The notes beneath the pieces were generated by a model that did not search any database, was not told the DNA's origin, and worked only from the letters and a program-made list of their open reading frames with translations. A stretch of 64,000 nt of DNA from Paracoccus sp. R12_2 (GTDB lineage: Bacteria > Pseudomonadota > Alphaproteobacteria > Rhodobacterales > Rhodobacteraceae): the NCBI RefSeq assembly GCF_017744015.1, contig NZ_JAGHRA010000004.1, positions 186,001 through 250,000 of the forward strand. Reading direction: 5' to 3'. The translations under genes and the position numbers were made by a program. The stretch's first letter is position 1. Every line of letters starts with the position of its first letter. Shown one piece after another: positions 53,789 through 60,526 of the stretch.

Positions 53789-53911
53789 ATGCAAATGTTT
53801 TACCTGATCCCGTGGGTCTTGGTTTTCGTCGTCCTGACCGTTCCGCCGCAACCGTCTCAGGCGCGGATCGGGGCCGGGCCGTGCAATCCCGAAGTGCAGA
53901 CCTGCATCTGA
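53789..53911 (+). CDS. Short secreted peptide heading the protease cassette (40 aa)
   Basis: This ORF was found by reading the gap: ATG after AAAAGGTGCTGCC, 40 codons, TGA, then only 10 bases to the membrane protein gene. The product has a hydrophobic signal-like core (FYLIPWVLVFVVLTV) with a likely SPase I site after PSQA. That leaves a mature peptide of ~15 residues containing two cysteines (GPCNPEVQTCI). No family is recognised. It could be a leader, a tiny signalling/regulatory peptide, or a chance ORF; spacing and ribosome site favour translation. Confidence 0.5.
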   Translation: MQMFYLIPWVLVFVVLTVPPQPSQARIGAGPCNPEVQTCI

Positions 53912-53921
53912 GACAGAAACC

Positions 53922-55616
53922 ATGAACCCCGCATATCTGGCAGCTTGTCTGGCCGGAGCGATCGTGTTGACGGTCGAGTCGGTTCAACAGTTTCGCAAAC
54001 CCGGCAAAAGCGTTGCTTTCGATCGCTTCTCGATCCTGCGCGGGGTCGAGATCGGCGCGCTGTGCACGCTGGGGGAACGGGTCCGGGGTGCGGCATTCTA
54101 TGTGGGCATCTATCTGCTGATCTATGCTGGTCTGCTTGGATCCGAACGGCTGCTTCAGATGTTCGTCGCACTTTCGGGCGAGCATGCGGGTCCGACCGGC
54201 AGCAGCTTTCTTCCGGATAATTCCCTGACCGTGAACGGGCTGAACTTCGGCAAGCCGTTCTATATCGCGACGCTAATCATGGTGGCGATGGTGTCGGGGG
54301 TTCTGGCCCCATTGGAAAGATTCATTCGCAGCGTCGCGCATCGCGCTGCCAATATCCCGAATGGCGTTTTCCGAATTGTCGAGGATCTGGACCGGTTCGA
54401 GTTTCCCGATTACCTGGATTCCGCAGCGCCGGCGCGTGACAGGTTCCGGTTGTTGTCGGGATTCGATCATCGCTTTCCCGATGGAACCGGTTGGAACACG
54501 CCGTCGGACCGACAGGATCTGCGCGGGTTTCTGAAGCAGATCGACGTGCTGCATGCGGCGGTGATCGGCGCTGGCCGGTACCGTTTCTTCAGCACCGCGA
54601 CGACCGAATCGCTTTCCGACGTGCACGATCTTCTGGTCAAATCCTACGAGAAACTGTGCGAGGATCTGGACGGCCTGAAGACGGACAGCCCCGAGGCGCA
54701 GACCAGATTCTACCAGGCCGCGGTCGATCTGTGCGAGAACATGAAGGCGATCTTCGCGGTCCAGTTCATTCGGAACGGCAGATCACTGACGGCACTGCCC
54801 GCCCAGCCCAACAACCCGCGCGACCGGCTTTACGGGCGTCTGAACGGTCATCTGCGCAGCAACGAAGAGGCGAATGCCGACGCATTGCTGGGGGCGACGC
54901 TAGCCTGTGCAATGGGATCCTTCCTTGCGGCATCGTTCATCTACTGGCTTTTCGTGCGCTTTGTTCTGGGCCTTGGGGTGTTCCCGCCGGATGTCCTGAA
55001 ATCCATCGTCACGCAGTCGATCGGACTTGCGATCACCGGGGCCACCTTGAGTTTCTTCAGCGGGTTCTTCGCGCTGCTGATCCGCGATATTCGGCGCGAA
55101 CAGGGCAAATGGGCCGCGTGGAACCCACGATTTCCACCCGTTTCGCGTCTTGTCGGGACGGTCGTGCTGCCCGGCGTCGTCGGCATGGCCTTCGTCGGAC
55201 TGGCGCTGCTGCTGCAGGATCTTGCCTTCGGCTATGTCGCCACGATGGATCAGATGCGCGACTTTCTTCAGGACAAATGGCGCTATCTGCTGTTTTTTGC
55301 GCCGCTTGGTGCCTGTGTGTCGCTGGGTGTTCTGATCGCCACCGACCAGCATGACAATTTGATTGCCAGCCGCACCATCCTTGTCACGCTGGCCGCGCTG
55401 GTGCCCGCGGTGGTGTTGGCATTGATCTGTGTGCTGATCGCAGTTCCGAATTTCACCTCGGCGCAAGAGGGATGGGCGTGGGCCATCTGGTATCTGCGCG
55501 AGGCGCTGTTCCTGTTGATGCCGCTGGCGATCTTCCTGATCTCTTACGCCGGTCTTCTTGAGATGTCGGAAAAGCGCAAGCATCTGGCGGCGGCCGCCGT
55601 GGCAGGTGAGGGATGA
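53922..55616 (+). CDS. Polytopic membrane protein of unknown function with a large soluble insert
   Basis: I do not recognise a family for this 564-residue protein. Hydrophobic segments at about 5-20, 56-73 and 112-131 are followed by a ~190-residue soluble region (132-320, with FRIVEDLDRFEFPDYLD and helical charged stretches). Six more segments follow at ~322-350, 361-387, 408-432, 454-474, 485-509 and 524-547. The layout suggests a membrane platform, sensor or channel rather than an ABC or MFS transporter. Its stop overlaps the start of the periplasmic binding-like gene (ATGA), implying coupled synthesis and possibly a complex. Confidence 0.75.
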   Translation: MNPAYLAACLAGAIVLTVESVQQFRKPGKSVAFDRFSILRGVEIGALCTLGERVRGAAFYVGIYLLIYAGLLGSERLLQMFVALSGEHAGPTGSSFLPDNSLTVNGLNFGKPFYIATLIMVAMVSGVLAPLERFIRSVAHRAANIPNGVFRIVEDLDRFEFPDYLDSAAPARDRFRLLSGFDHRFPDGTGWNTPSDRQDLRGFLKQIDVLHAAVIGAGRYRFFSTATTESLSDVHDLLVKSYEKLCEDLDGLKTDSPEAQTRFYQAAVDLCENMKAIFAVQFIRNGRSLTALPAQPNNPRDRLYGRLNGHLRSNEEANADALLGATLACAMGSFLAASFIYWLFVRFVLGLGVFPPDVLKSIVTQSIGLAITGATLSFFSGFFALLIRDIRREQGKWAAWNPRFPPVSRLVGTVVLPGVVGMAFVGLALLLQDLAFGYVATMDQMRDFLQDKWRYLLFFAPLGACVSLGVLIATDQHDNLIASRTILVTLAALVPAVVLALICVLIAVPNFTSAQEGWAWAIWYLREALFLLMPLAIFLISYAGLLEMSEKRKHLAAAAVAGEG

Positions 55617-56614
55617 AGGCCGCCCTTGCGATCCTGGCGCTGATCGCGGCGCCCGCCTGCGCGCAGCCCGCCGACGATACTGCACAGCCGGAATTGCCGA
55701 CTCTGTATGTCGGGGTTCGGGCCGATGCGCCGCCTTTTTCATACCGGCCCGATCAGATGCTTGTGTCATCCGGCAAGGGCACCGGTCCGTTGGGGGACGC
55801 AGGATATTCGGGCTATATCGTCTATATCTGCGACCGGGTGCTGGAAGTGATGCGCGACCGGAACGACCAGCCGGCCTTCAATGTCGTGCCGGTCGAGGTG
55901 ACGGCGGGATCCCGTTTCCAGATGCTGCGAGAAATGCCCGGCGGCGGCGATCCTTCGATCGACCTTCTATGCGATCCCGCCACGGCGACACGCGATCGTC
56001 TGAGCGACCACACCGCCTCGCTGCCGCTTTATCTTTCGGGGGTCGGCTATGCCGCAAGAAAGCGGGAAAGAAACCAGAATACCGGCTCCGGCAACTTCCG
56101 CATCAATGTCGTTGGCAGCACCACGGCCATCGATCACGGAATCCGGCGGATTCTGGACGCGGGGGAATGGCCAAGCTTTCGCGATGATCTGCTGAGCTAT
56201 CTGTATAATCCCGGCGCGGCCGCGGACGGCAACGAGAAGGTTCACCTGTCGCCCACCCACAAGGACGCGGTCAAGGCTTTCTGCGCGGCACCATCGGGCG
56301 ATTCCAACCCGCTTCAGTACTATGTCGGCGACCTGGAAATCGTGAACCGGGCCCTGCTTATATATGGCGACCCCGACTGCAAGCCCGAGCCCGCGACGAC
56401 GACCTACAGCGATGATCGCTATGTTTTGTTCATGCGCAATGCCGACAGCGTCGGCATCGACAAGGCGCGGCTGCTGATGACCTTTTCGCGGGTGCTGTCC
56501 GAACTTGTCCTGTCGCAGCCATCGCTGCTGGACGAGGCATTCGAGGCGAATTTCGAAGGCTATCGGCGCAGCGACAAGCTGCGCCTTTTTTTCTGGAGCC
56601 TTTACGGGCCGTGA
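55613..56614 (+). CDS. Periplasmic solute-binding-like protein (SBP family 3)
   Basis: The 333-residue protein has a signal peptide (cut after PACA-QPAD). LYVGVRADAPPFSYRPD, then SGYIVYICDRVLEVM and SIDLLCDPATATRDRLSDH, give the pattern of family-3 (amino acid type) binding proteins. It is longer than usual, with insertions around 60-70 and 215-265. No ABC permease or ATPase accompanies it; its partners are a membrane protein and two intracellular proteases. A ligand-sensing rather than transport role is therefore likely (inference). Confidence 0.72.
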   Translation: MKAALAILALIAAPACAQPADDTAQPELPTLYVGVRADAPPFSYRPDQMLVSSGKGTGPLGDAGYSGYIVYICDRVLEVMRDRNDQPAFNVVPVEVTAGSRFQMLREMPGGGDPSIDLLCDPATATRDRLSDHTASLPLYLSGVGYAARKRERNQNTGSGNFRINVVGSTTAIDHGIRRILDAGEWPSFRDDLLSYLYNPGAAADGNEKVHLSPTHKDAVKAFCAAPSGDSNPLQYYVGDLEIVNRALLIYGDPDCKPEPATTTYSDDRYVLFMRNADSVGIDKARLLMTFSRVLSELVLSQPSLLDEAFEANFEGYRRSDKLRLFFWSLYGP

Positions 56615-56635
56615 CCGGATGCAGGGGGGGTGTGG

Positions 56636-58645
56636 ATGAATGATGGGGCGTTGATCGGATCGACAGGGCAGCCCGCCGGTCAAAGGGCCGGCAGACGCAC
56701 CGCTGGCTGGCACAGCGGATTGTCCCGCGATCCGTCCGATTTGCGCGATCAGATCTATACCCCGACGCTGCGCCTTCTGTCGCCCGAGGCCGATCCGGGC
56801 GGGTTCGCCGCCGCAGCGTGTCCTGCCGACGGTTGCCCGTCCTATCCGATCCGCAATCAGGGCGATGCGGGCACCTGCGTCGGGCAGGCCCTTGCCAACC
56901 TGATCGACATTCACCGCCGACGCGCAAATGTTGCGAATGCGGACCCGGTATCGCCGCAGATGCTGTATCTGATGGCGCGGCGGATCGAGGGGCGCGAGAC
57001 CAGCGCCGACACCGGCGTTCAGTCGCTGCGCTCGGCGGTCAAGGGGTTCTATCATTTCGGCTGCTGCCCGGACAGGATGTGGCCGGACCCGGTCGCGCAG
57101 GCCGCCGCAGATGATCTGCCGTCCGAGGTCGAAAGGTTCAAATCGGCGCGGGGTGTGACGCTGGGGGCGTATTACCGCGTCCGCCCGATCCTCAACGATT
57201 ATCACAACGCCCTCGTCGAGGCGGACGGCATTCTTGTTTCGGCCGAAATCCACGCGGGGTGGCAAGACGACGCCGTGTCGGCGTTCTCTGTCGCATCCGC
57301 CGACCGGCGCGGCCGTATTCCGGTGTCATCCCGCGGCCTTGGCGCGCATGCCTTCGTGATCCTCGGCTACACCTCCGAGGGGTTCCTGGTGCTGAATTCC
57401 TGGGGCGCCGATTGGGGCGGGTTTCGCGACCGCCCGGGGATCGCGCTTTGGAAATACGAGGACTGGGCGCGCAACGTGATGGATGCCTGGGTGCTGCGCC
57501 TGGGCGTCCCTGCGCCCGAGGCGTTCCAGTATTCCGTGGGCGACCAGGGCATCAGTTTCGGTGGCGCCGATATCCGCGCGGGGTCCACCGCCTGCCATCA
57601 GTTGCTTGGCCATTTTGCCCATCTTGACGACGGTGTGCATGTCGAACGCGGCAGCTACGCGACCTCTCGCGACTATGTCGCCCAGACGACCGACCGATTG
57701 CGCAAGCGCAGCAAACGCGATCGCAAGCCGGTGCTGCTGTCGGTCAGCGGCTCGCTGATGGGGATGAAGGATGCTTTCGACTTCGAGGCGCGTCGGCGCC
57801 AATGCGTCGAGGACATCTGCGACATGTATCCCTATGCCGTCCTGTGGTGCAACGATCTGATCGAAAGCGCGACACCGGTGCTGACCCATCTGTTCTCGAC
57901 TGCGGTGCAGCGGGTCGGACCGCACAGCGACCGCCTGAACGCCGAGATCGAAAAGGTCACCGCCGGAATCGGCCGCGCGTTCTGGCGCGAGATCGAGCGT
58001 GCCGCAAGAACCGCCGGTCGCCATGTCACAAAGGGAACCGATGGCGCGGCGGCCGAGATATTCGACCGCTTCGCCGCAGCCCGCACGCCGCTGCATCTGG
58101 TGATCGAAGGTGCCGGCGCCCTGCTGATGGCAGAATATCTCGAGTCTTTGAACTCGGACACCGGCAACGCCGCCGAAAACCGCCGCCGCAAGAAACTGGC
58201 CGAACGATTCCATGCGGCCGTCGCCTCGATCGATCTGATTGCGCCCGTGATGGAAGCCCCGCGTTTCCAGTCGGCGTTCGGACCTCTGATCCGTGGGCTG
58301 TCGGTCCTCAAACCGGGGCGGGCGACGCTGTGGGTTCCGACACGGCCGTTCGAGGAACGGCTGTCCATCGACCACTATGCGGGTTCGATGTTGGATCTTG
58401 TCCTGTACAGTTTCCAGGGGCGGCCGCGCGATGCCCGGCTTGTCGGCATGTCGCGCCAGCGATCCGGCATTGCGCAGCTATGTGGTGCCGGCGGCGCGTT
58501 GCAGGGATTGCGCATCGGGCCGATCCGCCCGCGTGTGCCCGGACGGCGGCGCTATGAATATCACGAAGTCAGTATCAACCTTGCCTGTCACACGATGATC
58601 CTGCGCCATCTTGCCAGGATCGGTGAGGCCGGCGCGAAGCAGTGA
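56636..58645 (+). CDS. Papain-fold cysteine protease fused to a degenerate alpha/beta-hydrolase domain
   Basis: The 669-residue protein has no signal peptide. Residues ~65-290 form a C1 papain-like domain with an intact site: Q75 and C81 in RNQGDAGTC, H238 in GLGAHAFVILGY, N254 in LNSWGADWG. Residues ~360-669 look like an alpha/beta hydrolase (LLSVSGSLMG, LHLVIEGAGALL, ASIDLIAPVMEA, SMLDLVLYSF). Where a GHSxG nucleophile elbow is expected it reads IEGAGAL, so the catalytic serine is missing and the domain may bind rather than hydrolyse. A GGGGGG site precedes the ATG. It is third from the end of the cassette's protein order and 21 bases after the binding-like gene. Confidence 0.8.
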   Translation: MNDGALIGSTGQPAGQRAGRRTAGWHSGLSRDPSDLRDQIYTPTLRLLSPEADPGGFAAAACPADGCPSYPIRNQGDAGTCVGQALANLIDIHRRRANVANADPVSPQMLYLMARRIEGRETSADTGVQSLRSAVKGFYHFGCCPDRMWPDPVAQAAADDLPSEVERFKSARGVTLGAYYRVRPILNDYHNALVEADGILVSAEIHAGWQDDAVSAFSVASADRRGRIPVSSRGLGAHAFVILGYTSEGFLVLNSWGADWGGFRDRPGIALWKYEDWARNVMDAWVLRLGVPAPEAFQYSVGDQGISFGGADIRAGSTACHQLLGHFAHLDDGVHVERGSYATSRDYVAQTTDRLRKRSKRDRKPVLLSVSGSLMGMKDAFDFEARRRQCVEDICDMYPYAVLWCNDLIESATPVLTHLFSTAVQRVGPHSDRLNAEIEKVTAGIGRAFWREIERAARTAGRHVTKGTDGAAAEIFDRFAAARTPLHLVIEGAGALLMAEYLESLNSDTGNAAENRRRKKLAERFHAAVASIDLIAPVMEAPRFQSAFGPLIRGLSVLKPGRATLWVPTRPFEERLSIDHYAGSMLDLVLYSFQGRPRDARLVGMSRQRSGIAQLCGAGGALQGLRIGPIRPRVPGRRRYEYHEVSINLACHTMILRHLARIGEAGAKQ

Positions 58646-58657
58646 AAGGACAACGCC

Positions 58658-60526
58658 ATGGCGCGCGCGAAGAAACCCTCGAACGGCAAGCCTCGTGAGG
58701 CTGCTGCCGGCGGCCCGGACGGCAAGCTGACGCTGGAGCAACTGGCCGAGATGGTCGCCGATCCGGCCACCGCGCCCGGCGATCTGGAACCCTATTTCCG
58801 CGTCGCCGAGGATCAGGGCGCGGCCTTCGATCCCGTGGTCGAGATCAATACCGATACGGTTCATGTCCCCGACACCGCCGAGGGGCGTTCGCGCAGCGCG
58901 CTGATCCTGAATGGCGCGAACTGGCTGGAACGGAATGGCAGGCAAAGCCGGTTCTATCGGCTGCTGTCCAAGGGAAACTACACAGGCCCGGTGATCGTCG
59001 AAGAAGGCGACAGCTGGTTCCAGTATCCCTTCAAGCTGTGGGACGTGATCGACGTGCTGATGGAGAAATATGCCGTCCTGTCGCTGAGCGCGGGCGGGGA
59101 CACGCTGGAAAACATGGTCCGCAGGGCCGAATATCGAAAGGCGTTGCAGTCCACTCAGGCCTCGATCCTGCTGCTGTCGGCGGGTGGCAACGATCTGGTT
59201 GCGAACGGGAATCTGGCGACGCATCTGCGGGCGTTCGATGCTGCGCTGCAACCGGCCGAATATCTGCTGAGCAGTTTCGACCAGCTGATCGGCAGGACCA
59301 TGGCGCTTTATGACATGATCTTCCGCGACGTGGCGCAGCGTTTCCCGCAGGTTCAGGTCGTCTGCCACGGCTATGATTATCCGGTCCCCGACAAGGGCCG
59401 CTGGCTGGGACAGCCGATGGCCACGCGCGGGATCGTCGATCCGCAATTGCAGGTGTCCATCGCCAAGGTGATGATGGATCGATTCAACATCTCTCTTGCG
59501 CGATTGTCACGCAGCCATGCGCATGTGCATTTCCTGGATCTGCGCGGGGTTGTGGGACGGCAGGGCTGGTCCGACGAACTGCATCCGAAGAATGCCGGCT
59601 ATCGCCGTGTAGGCGATATCTTCGCGGCGCAGATCGACAAGTTGTCGCGCCCGCGAGGCCGCGGTGCGTCACGGTCCGATCGCCCGCGCGCGATGTCGTT
59701 GCATCTGGGGCTGAACAACGCCGATCCGGCGCATTACGGGGCCGAGCTTTCGCCGTTGGAATTCTGCATCGCGGACGCCGAAGCCATGGCCGAACTGGCG
59801 GGAAGCCGGGGCTTTGCGCCGATCCTGCTGATCGATGCGGCCGCGACACGGGATGCCCTGAAAGAGGCGATGGCCAAGGCCGCGACCGACCTGCAACCCG
59901 GCGAGACCTTCATGTTCACCTATGCGGGGCATGGCGGGCAGTTGCCGGATTTCAACGGTGATGAAATGGGCGGTCCAGACATGGACCGGCTGGACGAGAC
60001 GCTGTGCCTGTTCGACGGGCAGTTCGTCGATGACGAGTTGTTCGCGCTGTGGTCGCAGTTCCGCGAAGGCGTGCGCGTTCTGGCCGTCTTCGACAGCTGC
60101 CATTCGGGCAGCGTCGTCCGGGCGCCCGCGACGCTGGACGCAGGACCGACAGTCACCGCCCGGCGGATGACTCTGGGGGCTGCATCACGCGTTTTTCGCA
60201 AGAACGAGGCCTTTTATCGCGGTCTGCCAGGCGTCGGCGCGGCACCCGATCCGGCAATCATCAATCGCGAACTGGACTATCCGGTGGCGGCGTGCGTGGT
60301 GCAGCTTTCTGCATGCCAGTCCAACCAGCTGGCGACCGAAAGCCTCGGGCACGGGCGTTTTACCGATACCATGCTGGAAGTCCTGGGGGCTTCGCCGCAG
60401 ATCTATGGATACAAGGCACTCATGGACCGGATCGCGTCGCGCATGCCGCCCGAACAGACGCCGAAATACTGGCGTGTCGGCGCCGAGGATGCATCCTTCG
60501 AAAGCCAGTTGGTTTTCTCGGTCTAG
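58658..60526 (+). CDS. SGNH hydrolase-metacaspase fusion protein
   Basis: The 622-residue cytoplasmic protein has three parts. A helical N-terminus (~20-110) is of unknown role. An SGNH/GDSL-like hydrolase (~110-330) has S119 in EEGDSW, SAGGD, N178 in AGGND and D306/H309 in DELHP. A caspase-like C14 domain (~345-622) has catalytic H425 in YAGHGGQ, C481 in DSCHSGS, plus LCLFDGQFVDDEL and LSACQSNQLATE, as in type I metacaspases. Both active sites look complete. Metacaspases usually cut after Arg/Lys and are often calcium-dependent; an acidic patch (NGDEMGGPDMDRLDE) could serve that. It is last in the cassette, 12 bases after the papain gene. Confidence 0.87.
   Translation: MARAKKPSNGKPREAAAGGPDGKLTLEQLAEMVADPATAPGDLEPYFRVAEDQGAAFDPVVEINTDTVHVPDTAEGRSRSALILNGANWLERNGRQSRFYRLLSKGNYTGPVIVEEGDSWFQYPFKLWDVIDVLMEKYAVLSLSAGGDTLENMVRRAEYRKALQSTQASILLLSAGGNDLVANGNLATHLRAFDAALQPAEYLLSSFDQLIGRTMALYDMIFRDVAQRFPQVQVVCHGYDYPVPDKGRWLGQPMATRGIVDPQLQVSIAKVMMDRFNISLARLSRSHAHVHFLDLRGVVGRQGWSDELHPKNAGYRRVGDIFAAQIDKLSRPRGRGASRSDRPRAMSLHLGLNNADPAHYGAELSPLEFCIADAEAMAELAGSRGFAPILLIDAAATRDALKEAMAKAATDLQPGETFMFTYAGHGGQLPDFNGDEMGGPDMDRLDETLCLFDGQFVDDELFALWSQFREGVRVLAVFDSCHSGSVVRAPATLDAGPTVTARRMTLGAASRVFRKNEAFYRGLPGVGAAPDPAIINRELDYPVAACVVQLSACQSNQLATESLGHGRFTDTMLEVLGASPQIYGYKALMDRIASRMPPEQTPKYWRVGAEDASFESQLVFSV

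Follow-up and report, generated by a model that had tools for sequence, protein, structure and literature searches.

A five-gene Paracoccus cassette joins a conserved peptide, membrane and binding-protein module to a papain-like protease and an SGNH-caspase, and is a candidate signal-gated lytic system

What function could bring a short signal-bearing peptide, a multi-pass membrane protein, a solute-binding-like protein and two unrelated cysteine proteases together in one compact locus? The question is raised by a cassette on the + strand of a 64,000-nucleotide stretch of DNA from Paracoccus sp. R12_2 (contig NZ_JAGHRA010000004.1, positions 186,001 to 250,000), referred to here as the window. 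Its genes encode, in order, a peptide of 40 amino acids (aa) with a signal-like N-terminus and a C-terminal CNPEVQTC loop (53789..53911), a 564-aa transmembrane protein (TM; 53922..55616), a family-3-like solute-binding protein with a signal-like start (SBP; 55613..56614), a papain-like, xylellain-type cysteine protease fused to an alpha/beta-hydrolase-like domain (PAP; 56636..58645, with an alternative GTG start at 56630), and an SGNH hydrolase fused to an orthocaspase (CASP; 58658..60526). A preliminary description of this DNA had reported five same-strand genes with gaps of 10, -4, 21 and 12 bases, about nine transmembrane segments in the second product, and a binding-like protein without ATP-binding cassette (ABC) partners. 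All of this was confirmed: the genes lie at these coordinates with this spacing, the -4 being an ATGA overlap, TM has nine hydrophobic segments at a cut-off of 1.6, and the five genes include an SBP with a sub-threshold SBP_bac_3 match and no ABC permease or ATPase. The AT-richness of the proposed upstream promoter region was also borne out, but the promoter itself was not, since no sigma-70-like site was found on the + strand. Similarly, the proposal of two cysteine proteases, each with a hydrolase-type domain, stood with respect to the papain, caspase and SGNH domains, but the hydrolase serine of PAP has been lost.

Sequence comparison between related loci showed that the peptide, TM and SBP constitute a conserved module, and that PAP and the SGNH-caspase constitute a conserved gene pair in which the papain, SGNH and caspase catalytic residues are intact. 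Judged by the same comparison, the five genes represent one variant of a modular system in which the partner domain of SGNH varies. We tentatively favor the interpretation that the cassette is a signal-gated lytic system, a receptor module coupled to an effector module for regulated self-dismantling, and would give this interpretation slightly less than an even chance. The same cassette is present in P. maritimus (locus L021), with protein identities of 97-99% (95% for the peptide), and the ratio of nonsynonymous to synonymous substitution (dN/dS) between the two is low, at ~0.02 for TM, ~0.07 for SBP, ~0.11 for PAP and ~0.06 for CASP, indicating that the genes are not chance reading frames. 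For the peptide, 3 synonymous and 2 nonsynonymous changes give a dN/dS of ~0.2, too few changes to weigh alone.

The peptide family consists of short open reading frames upstream of TM with a hydrophobic start and a C-[N/D]-P-x4-C motif (Cys-x6-Cys; 53882..53905 in the window) followed by 0-1 residues before the end. By inspection, a peptide was found upstream of TM in 27 of 29 TM-family loci, the two exceptions being the distant TM matches L134 and L135, where none was detected. A hydrophobic signal-like stretch is present in all 27 copies, and the proline of the motif is kept in 24 (it is absent in L013 and L014). An automatic rule recovered the peptide at 24 of the 29 TM loci and in none of 1055 control genes, which were other genes of at least 250 aa from 113 loci, while a looser Cys-x6-Cys rule matched 25/29 and 9/1055, respectively. 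The automatic rule missed L005, where the open frame overruns the peptide, and L014, where the TM gene is split in two frames; inspection revealed the peptide in both. All 11 TM loci added after the motif had been recognized carry the peptide, 10 in the strict form and one (L231, CATNARVC, without N/D-P) in the looser form, and further copies occur at L157 and, at the expected place, on a Palleronia plasmid. When 1.8 Mb was scanned for the peptide, hydrophobic matches (over 2.0) were found at TM loci only. The 29 loci are not independent: six (L017, L018 and L026-L029) are Sinorhizobium/Ensifer relatives of one type, the window and L021 are near-copies, as are L013 and L014, and the count leaves out L016, taken as the same locus as L021, as well as plasmid matches to TM in other Ensifer, Rhizobium and P. 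yeei records, plus H3.

These features also bear on whether the peptide might be a regulatory leader that governs translation of TM by attenuation or arrest and is not itself secreted. Its small size, its position directly upstream of TM and its conserved C-terminus near the stop codon are consistent with such a role. However, the signal of a secretion-arrest peptide must leave the ribosome, for which ~40 aa is short, and the signal-like stretch in every copy and the retention of Cys-x6-Cys across genera argue against a leader, which we consider quite improbable.

TM belongs to a family without a Pfam match over the cut-off, as do the peptide and PAP in a Pfam scan of the five genes. A TM-family profile had no convincing match in the PDB (best E 0.2), and a search with TM of 385 genomes, sampled evenly from the class, gave matches in 3. 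TM and SBP adjoin in 14 of the 29 loci and are fused in 8 (L034, L157 and L230-L235). Together with the PAP-CASP fusions of L156 and L157, these fusions suggest that TM and SBP, and likewise PAP and CASP, work together. The SBP falls below the SBP_bac_3 cut-off of 26.4 bits (13.8 bits in the window, 24.6 bits in L034), and a profile built from 7 SBPs reaches amino-acid-binding proteins in the PDB, with AncQR the best at E 2.4e-7. Among 20 SBPs compared, C73, C120, C224, D117 and D240 are invariant; since the invariant cysteines are odd in number and the peptide has two of its own, we speculate that a thiol switch may be involved. A search of the 385 genomes with SBP was not used as evidence: 29 matched, nearly all partially and over the first half of the profile, as expected for generic SBP_bac_3 proteins. 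A terminator-like hairpin followed by a T-run lies on the + strand within the 3' end of the SBP gene (56565..56592), between the receptor and effector genes. No other + strand hairpin in the window has a stem of 7 or more perfect pairs and, after it, 7 or more T within 8 bases; this one is identical in L021, but there the T-run is interrupted. It may be a coincidence or a by-product of an encoded, conserved KLRxFFW-like motif.

The reach of the SBP profile to amino-acid-binding proteins is also compatible with a nutrient-scavenging operon, in which the SBP would sense amino acids and the enzymes would digest macromolecules, and the position of the cassette between sugar ABC genes and a dehydrogenase gene is in keeping with this. 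The ABC genes are on the opposite strand and have their own binding protein. Moreover, the cassette module has no ABC permease or ATPase, its enzymes have no Sec-like starts (see below), and neither the peptide nor the endolysin-type partners found in related loci would be explained, making this alternative very improbable. Two genomes of the same genus share the downstream dehydrogenase, at 84 and 81% identity, but the 14.5 kb examined there showed no counterpart of the upstream ABC genes, so that no clean empty site was found.

PAP matches xylellain, a papain-like protease of Xylella (PDB 3ois), by phmmer at E 4.6e-10, and no match to the Pfam C1 family was reported for the window protein. 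An AlphaFold model of PAP from 50 aligned sequences had a pLDDT of 84.9, and approximately the first 290 residues of this model align with xylellain with a Z of 27.2 and a root-mean-square deviation of 2.2 A over 231 residues at 27% identity. Within the papain domain (~aa 28-290; 56717..57505; Q75, C81, H238, N254), the active-site Q and C81 are each present in 92 of 93 aligned PAP rows, with one gap each, and H238 and N254 in all 93. PAP thus shares the papain fold of xylellain, but the match is limited to aa 23-291, and PAP adds the alpha/beta-hydrolase-like domain (~aa 320-662; 57593..58621). The assignment of this second domain is based on sequence motifs, a predicted strand (486-492) and helix (494-506), and weak PDB profile matches, the best at E 0.036, to esterases; the PAP rows listed by Foldseek and VIA-align fall within the papain part, and no structural match is claimed for the hydrolase-like domain.

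CASP exceeds the Pfam cut-offs for both Lipase_GDSL_2 and Peptidase_C14 (the latter at 53.3 bits vs 21.4), and its tail (aa 343-622) matches the orthocaspase GSU0716 (PDB 3bij) by phmmer at E 2.2e-54. The caspase domain (~aa 343-622; 59684..60523; H425, C481) therefore resembles GSU0716, but the match covers this domain only, and CASP has an extra SGNH module (~aa 20-335; 58715..59662; S119, G147, N178, D306/H309) that other loci pair with other domains. The S, G, N and H block residues of the SGNH module were kept in 28/28 sequences, and the caspase H and C in 23/23.

The second domain of PAP has a different history. In the broad PAP family it mostly carries HGG and GHSxG motifs, but in the caspase-linked clade these are mostly replaced by GSL and D/E-GAG, the window having EGAG at aa 491-494 in place of the GxSxG serine. 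We tabulated the serine in 93 of 100 PAP rows, those with a matched stretch over 430 residues. Of 23 rows accompanied by an SGNH-caspase, 21 lack the serine, one has a gap (L159), and one, L008, keeps it although an SGNH-caspase lies 3.7 kb away. Among rows without a detected caspase, 69 of 70 retain it; for the exception, L006, an SGNH-caspase proved to lie at the far end of the circular plasmid, across the origin. Where PAP is partnered by SGNH alone or by SGNH-trypsin, the serine is kept in all five cases, two of them near-identical. The rule that the serine is lost only with a caspase has exceptions in L008 and in two loci outside the 93-row table, L009 and L010, which also lack the serine and have no caspase match in the stretch examined. 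On a quick PAP tree without bootstrap, containing 80 of the 93 rows (13, mostly near-copies, were left out by hand), the loss maps to a single change, and it therefore counts as one event rather than repeated evidence. Given the loss of the GxSxG serine, the domain is probably not an active hydrolase, and it may have taken on a binding or regulatory role after the partnership with the SGNH-caspase became fixed. L009 and L010, along with L011, are on Paracoccus/Roseivivax plasmids and carry a PAP-trypsin-like fusion beside a divergent ~2400 aa gene and a hypothetical gene, which is a separate conserved locus.

The effector side of the cassette is highly variable between loci. The SGNH module is fused to caspase plus Peptidase_M15 in L030, L033, L034, L156, L157 and L159; to trypsin in L158 and L222 (SGNH by profile only), with the trypsin in front in Geminocystis L241; to amidase plus M15 in L239 and L242 by Pfam, and in L236 with SGNH by profile; and to a protein annotated as an S8 peptidase in another locus. 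It has no partner domain in L223, L224 and L240. The P. seriniphilus locus L236 retains the window order with other effectors, i.e., peptide, TM, SBP, SGNH-amidase-M15 and trypsin, and a CHAT protein directly follows TM-SBP in L235, where it has alpha/beta-hydrolase-type matches, and, by annotation, in L234. Other neighbors identified by Pfam or annotation include GH19, CHAP, GH108, SLT, patatin, S8, haem peroxidase, chitosanase and C25 proteins. Three of these partners were scanned, one each of GH19, GH108 and CHAP, and all match phage endolysin or tail-lysozyme families. A hydropathy rule, as opposed to a signal-peptide predictor, was applied to a hand-picked set of 26 effector proteins comprising PAP, CASP and 24 others from related loci, and a Sec-like N-terminus was found in none; their highest 11-residue hydropathy mean was 1.85, compared to 2.67-3.00 for the peptide, SBP and TM as positives. 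Two enzymes, the SLT protein of L230 and the S8 protein of L023, have an internal hydrophobic stretch. Based on the lack of Sec-like N-termini, the effector enzymes are probably cytoplasmic.

Several further genes were observed beside these effectors. In nine PAP loci (L043, L073, L077, L082, L085, L087-L089 and L097), similar small proteins neighbor PAP, and the one scanned, from L043, is a GH108 endolysin-like enzyme. A haem-peroxidase-type protein of ~620 aa is encoded directly upstream of PAP in L022, L158 and L222, by Pfam, and in L006, L023 and L024, by similarity cluster or annotation; annotated peroxidases also lie close to PAP at L020 and L233, and another belongs to the Geminocystis SGNH locus. 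The latter, on a cyanobacterial plasmid (L241), encodes its trypsin-SGNH fusion alongside genes annotated as GH19, amidase, murein endopeptidase and di-heme peroxidase, and no TM, SBP or PAP match was found within 12.4 kb. In L025, Stf0 sulphotransferase and FkbM methyltransferase genes are just upstream of PAP-CASP, and an S8 peptidase is downstream.

Peptidoglycan hydrolases, lipases and proteases in variable combinations could instead constitute an interbacterial toxin battery, with the enzymes exported to attack competitors and TM, SBP and the peptide serving as immunity or export parts. By analogy, the variable partner domains resemble those of polymorphic toxins, and a Rap1a/Tai-family immunity gene occurs in the L238 stretch. 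Export is difficult to reconcile with the absence of Sec-like starts under the hydropathy rule. The type VI secretion sheath protein VipB is absent in five of six same-genus PAP genomes, including that of the window, and present in G063; a phage-type sheath is also absent in the window's genome, but present in G089 and below the cut-off in G026. Furthermore, TM-SBP remains constant while the effectors change, unlike cognate immunity genes. Taken together, we regard a toxin battery, the main alternative, as rather unlikely. The endolysin-type partners without Sec-like starts are likewise reminiscent of phage lysis cassettes, but PAP had 0 matches in 50,697 phage records, and CASP had one weak match, to its caspase part.

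To what extent do the five genes travel together? A genome scan with PAP kept 80 loci from 100 relatives. Each of the 14 best (L021-L034) has an SGNH-caspase directly downstream; their sources are alphaproteobacteria, plus one uncultured gammaproteobacterium, a Granulosicoccus. In the 385 genomes, strong matches to the SGNH module were found in 8 (E up to 1e-20), to PAP in 11 (E up to 1e-45), and to both in 6; the two genes are close in four of the six (the window's, G431, G124 and G342) and apart in G221 and G406. The complete set of five parts is present, with the order changed, in L021, L034, L157, L019 and the Palleronia plasmid. In L034 (P. aerius), TM-SBP is fused and divergent, and CASP carries Peptidase_M15; in L157, from the same genus, TM-SBP and PAP-CASP-M15 are each fused and the two are divergent; in L019, a Rhizobium plasmid, TM and SBP are divergent from PAP and CASP; and on the Palleronia plasmid, the five parts span the origin with a peptidoglycan-binding gene between. 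A lack of co-occurrence beyond close kin, which would have refuted the initial proposal, is thus not what was seen: the parts recur together across Rhodobacterales and Hyphomicrobiales, in rearranged and fused forms.

Caspases with interchangeable partners have been described in conflict systems by Kaur et al. 2020 (PMC7159879). According to that paper, an alpha/beta-hydrolase neighbor always accompanies VMAP caspase domains, trypsin and caspase are mutually exclusive, the two-gene EACC1-caspase system has an N-terminal caspase and a variable C-terminal domain, and this System 4 has instances of transmembrane helices with a periplasmic-binding-protein domain. The present loci share several of these themes, namely a caspase with interchangeable domains, the pairing of hydrolase and caspase, the replacement of caspase by trypsin, membrane association and, in some instances, transmembrane segments combined with a periplasmic binding protein. 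One can therefore envision the cassette as belonging to, or deriving from, the EACC1-caspase or VMAP ternary systems, its sensor being new, and the CHAT and alpha/beta-hydrolase-type protein directly after TM-SBP in L235 is consistent with this. However, the EACC1-associated caspase model scores 22.4 bits against a cut-off of 140, the caspase is C-terminal here, and no vWA, MoxR, VMAP, STAND, EACC1 or NTPase match was found in the five genes, to which the search for the first four was confined. Unlike the systems described in the available text, which contains 'SGNH' 0 times and 'papain-like' once, the cassette encodes a multi-transmembrane protein, a separate or fused SBP, a CNP peptide, a papain and an SGNH module, and we consider either relationship improbable.

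A Chitinophaga pinensis fusion of GDSL lipase, amidase and metacaspase, described as seemingly 'a highly destructive weapon' (Asplund-Samuelsson et al. 2012, PMC3501461), likewise joins lipase, amidase and caspase domains in one protein, but it is a single sequence for which the available text describes no partner genes, with 'papain' and 'SBP' appearing 0 times. The accessible part of PMC8195603 contains no description of this cassette. PADLOC returned single-protein matches only, i.e., 'caspase', a weak BrxC (window, E 0.017) and a weak BovA (L235, E 0.0004). The earlier statement that no named system matches therefore held for the libraries searched and for open-licence PMC papers, a set that excludes most subscription papers and bioRxiv preprints. 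The cassette is apparently an undescribed caspase conflict- or death-type system with a new sensor module.

How, then, might it act? We infer the following scheme of gating, proteolysis, lysis and benefit for the signal-gated lytic system. A secreted Cys-x6-Cys peptide, acting as a ligand, subunit or plug, would together with the periplasmic SBP gate the TM protein, which on receipt of a signal would release the cytoplasmic enzymes to act. The papain would act first, followed by the SGNH-caspase, possibly via cleavage, with the caspase degrading proteins and the SGNH module attacking the envelope, joined in related loci by peptidoglycan hydrolases and lipases. The outcome would be regulated self-dismantling, in the form of either abortive infection or altruistic/kin lysis. 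Because the partner domains are interchangeable and loci are found on conjugative plasmids, a role in conflict fits better than housekeeping. Of the signal-triggered proteolytic circuit initially proposed, the parts list and the sensor-protease set as a conserved unit were upheld, but defence, cell death or envelope stress as its function was not established.

Several observations weigh against this scheme. The remaining 66 of the 80 PAP loci, often on short contigs, have no SGNH-caspase neighbor and no TM or SBP in the stretch examined; they represent a broad family reaching Gammaproteobacteria, Planctomycetota, Nitrospirota, Verrucomicrobiota and others, and include SGNH alone (L048), weak separate caspase-like matches (L053) and a gene in the same similarity cluster (L078). 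Conversely, of 17 TM loci reached by TM queries, five have PAP or SGNH (L233, L236, L238, L239 and L240), six have other lytic or protease neighbors by Pfam or annotation (L005, L230, L231, L232, L234 and L235), and six have none recognized (L013, L014, L015, L134, L135 and L237, most of these records being unannotated). In 7 of the 29 TM loci no SBP was detected, and 15 of 20 SBPs retain the TxTxxR Arg, the residue expected to contact the ligand in proteins of family 3. Structure prediction for TM from 7 rows was unusable (mean pLDDT 44.1), so that gating by TM is a guess. The immunity-like gene near the L238 cassette would also fit exported toxins. Finally, the peptide loop is nearly uniform across genera, unlike a strain-specific pheromone, which suggests one conserved partner rather than strain-specific signaling.

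A bolder version of the signal-gated lytic system, possible but somewhat unlikely in our estimation, is that these loci define a new Gram-negative signaling class, in which an obligate secreted Cys-x6-Cys mini-peptide and a multi-transmembrane/SBP receptor unleash interchangeable cytoplasmic lytic enzymes, as a bacterial counterpart of caspase death pathways triggered by peptides or redox changes, perhaps with the three invariant cysteines of the SBP forming a thiol-disulphide switch.

To our knowledge, the physiological triggers of bacterial caspases are mostly unknown. The cassettes described here are small and place an orthocaspase beside a defined candidate sensor, composed of peptide, SBP and TM, and a second, unrelated protease. 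If our interpretation is correct, they would connect the sensing of extracellular signals with caspase-type dismantling of bacterial cells, and would represent a modular family, found on plasmids of rhizobia and Paracoccus, whose sensor is constant while the lytic enzymes change.

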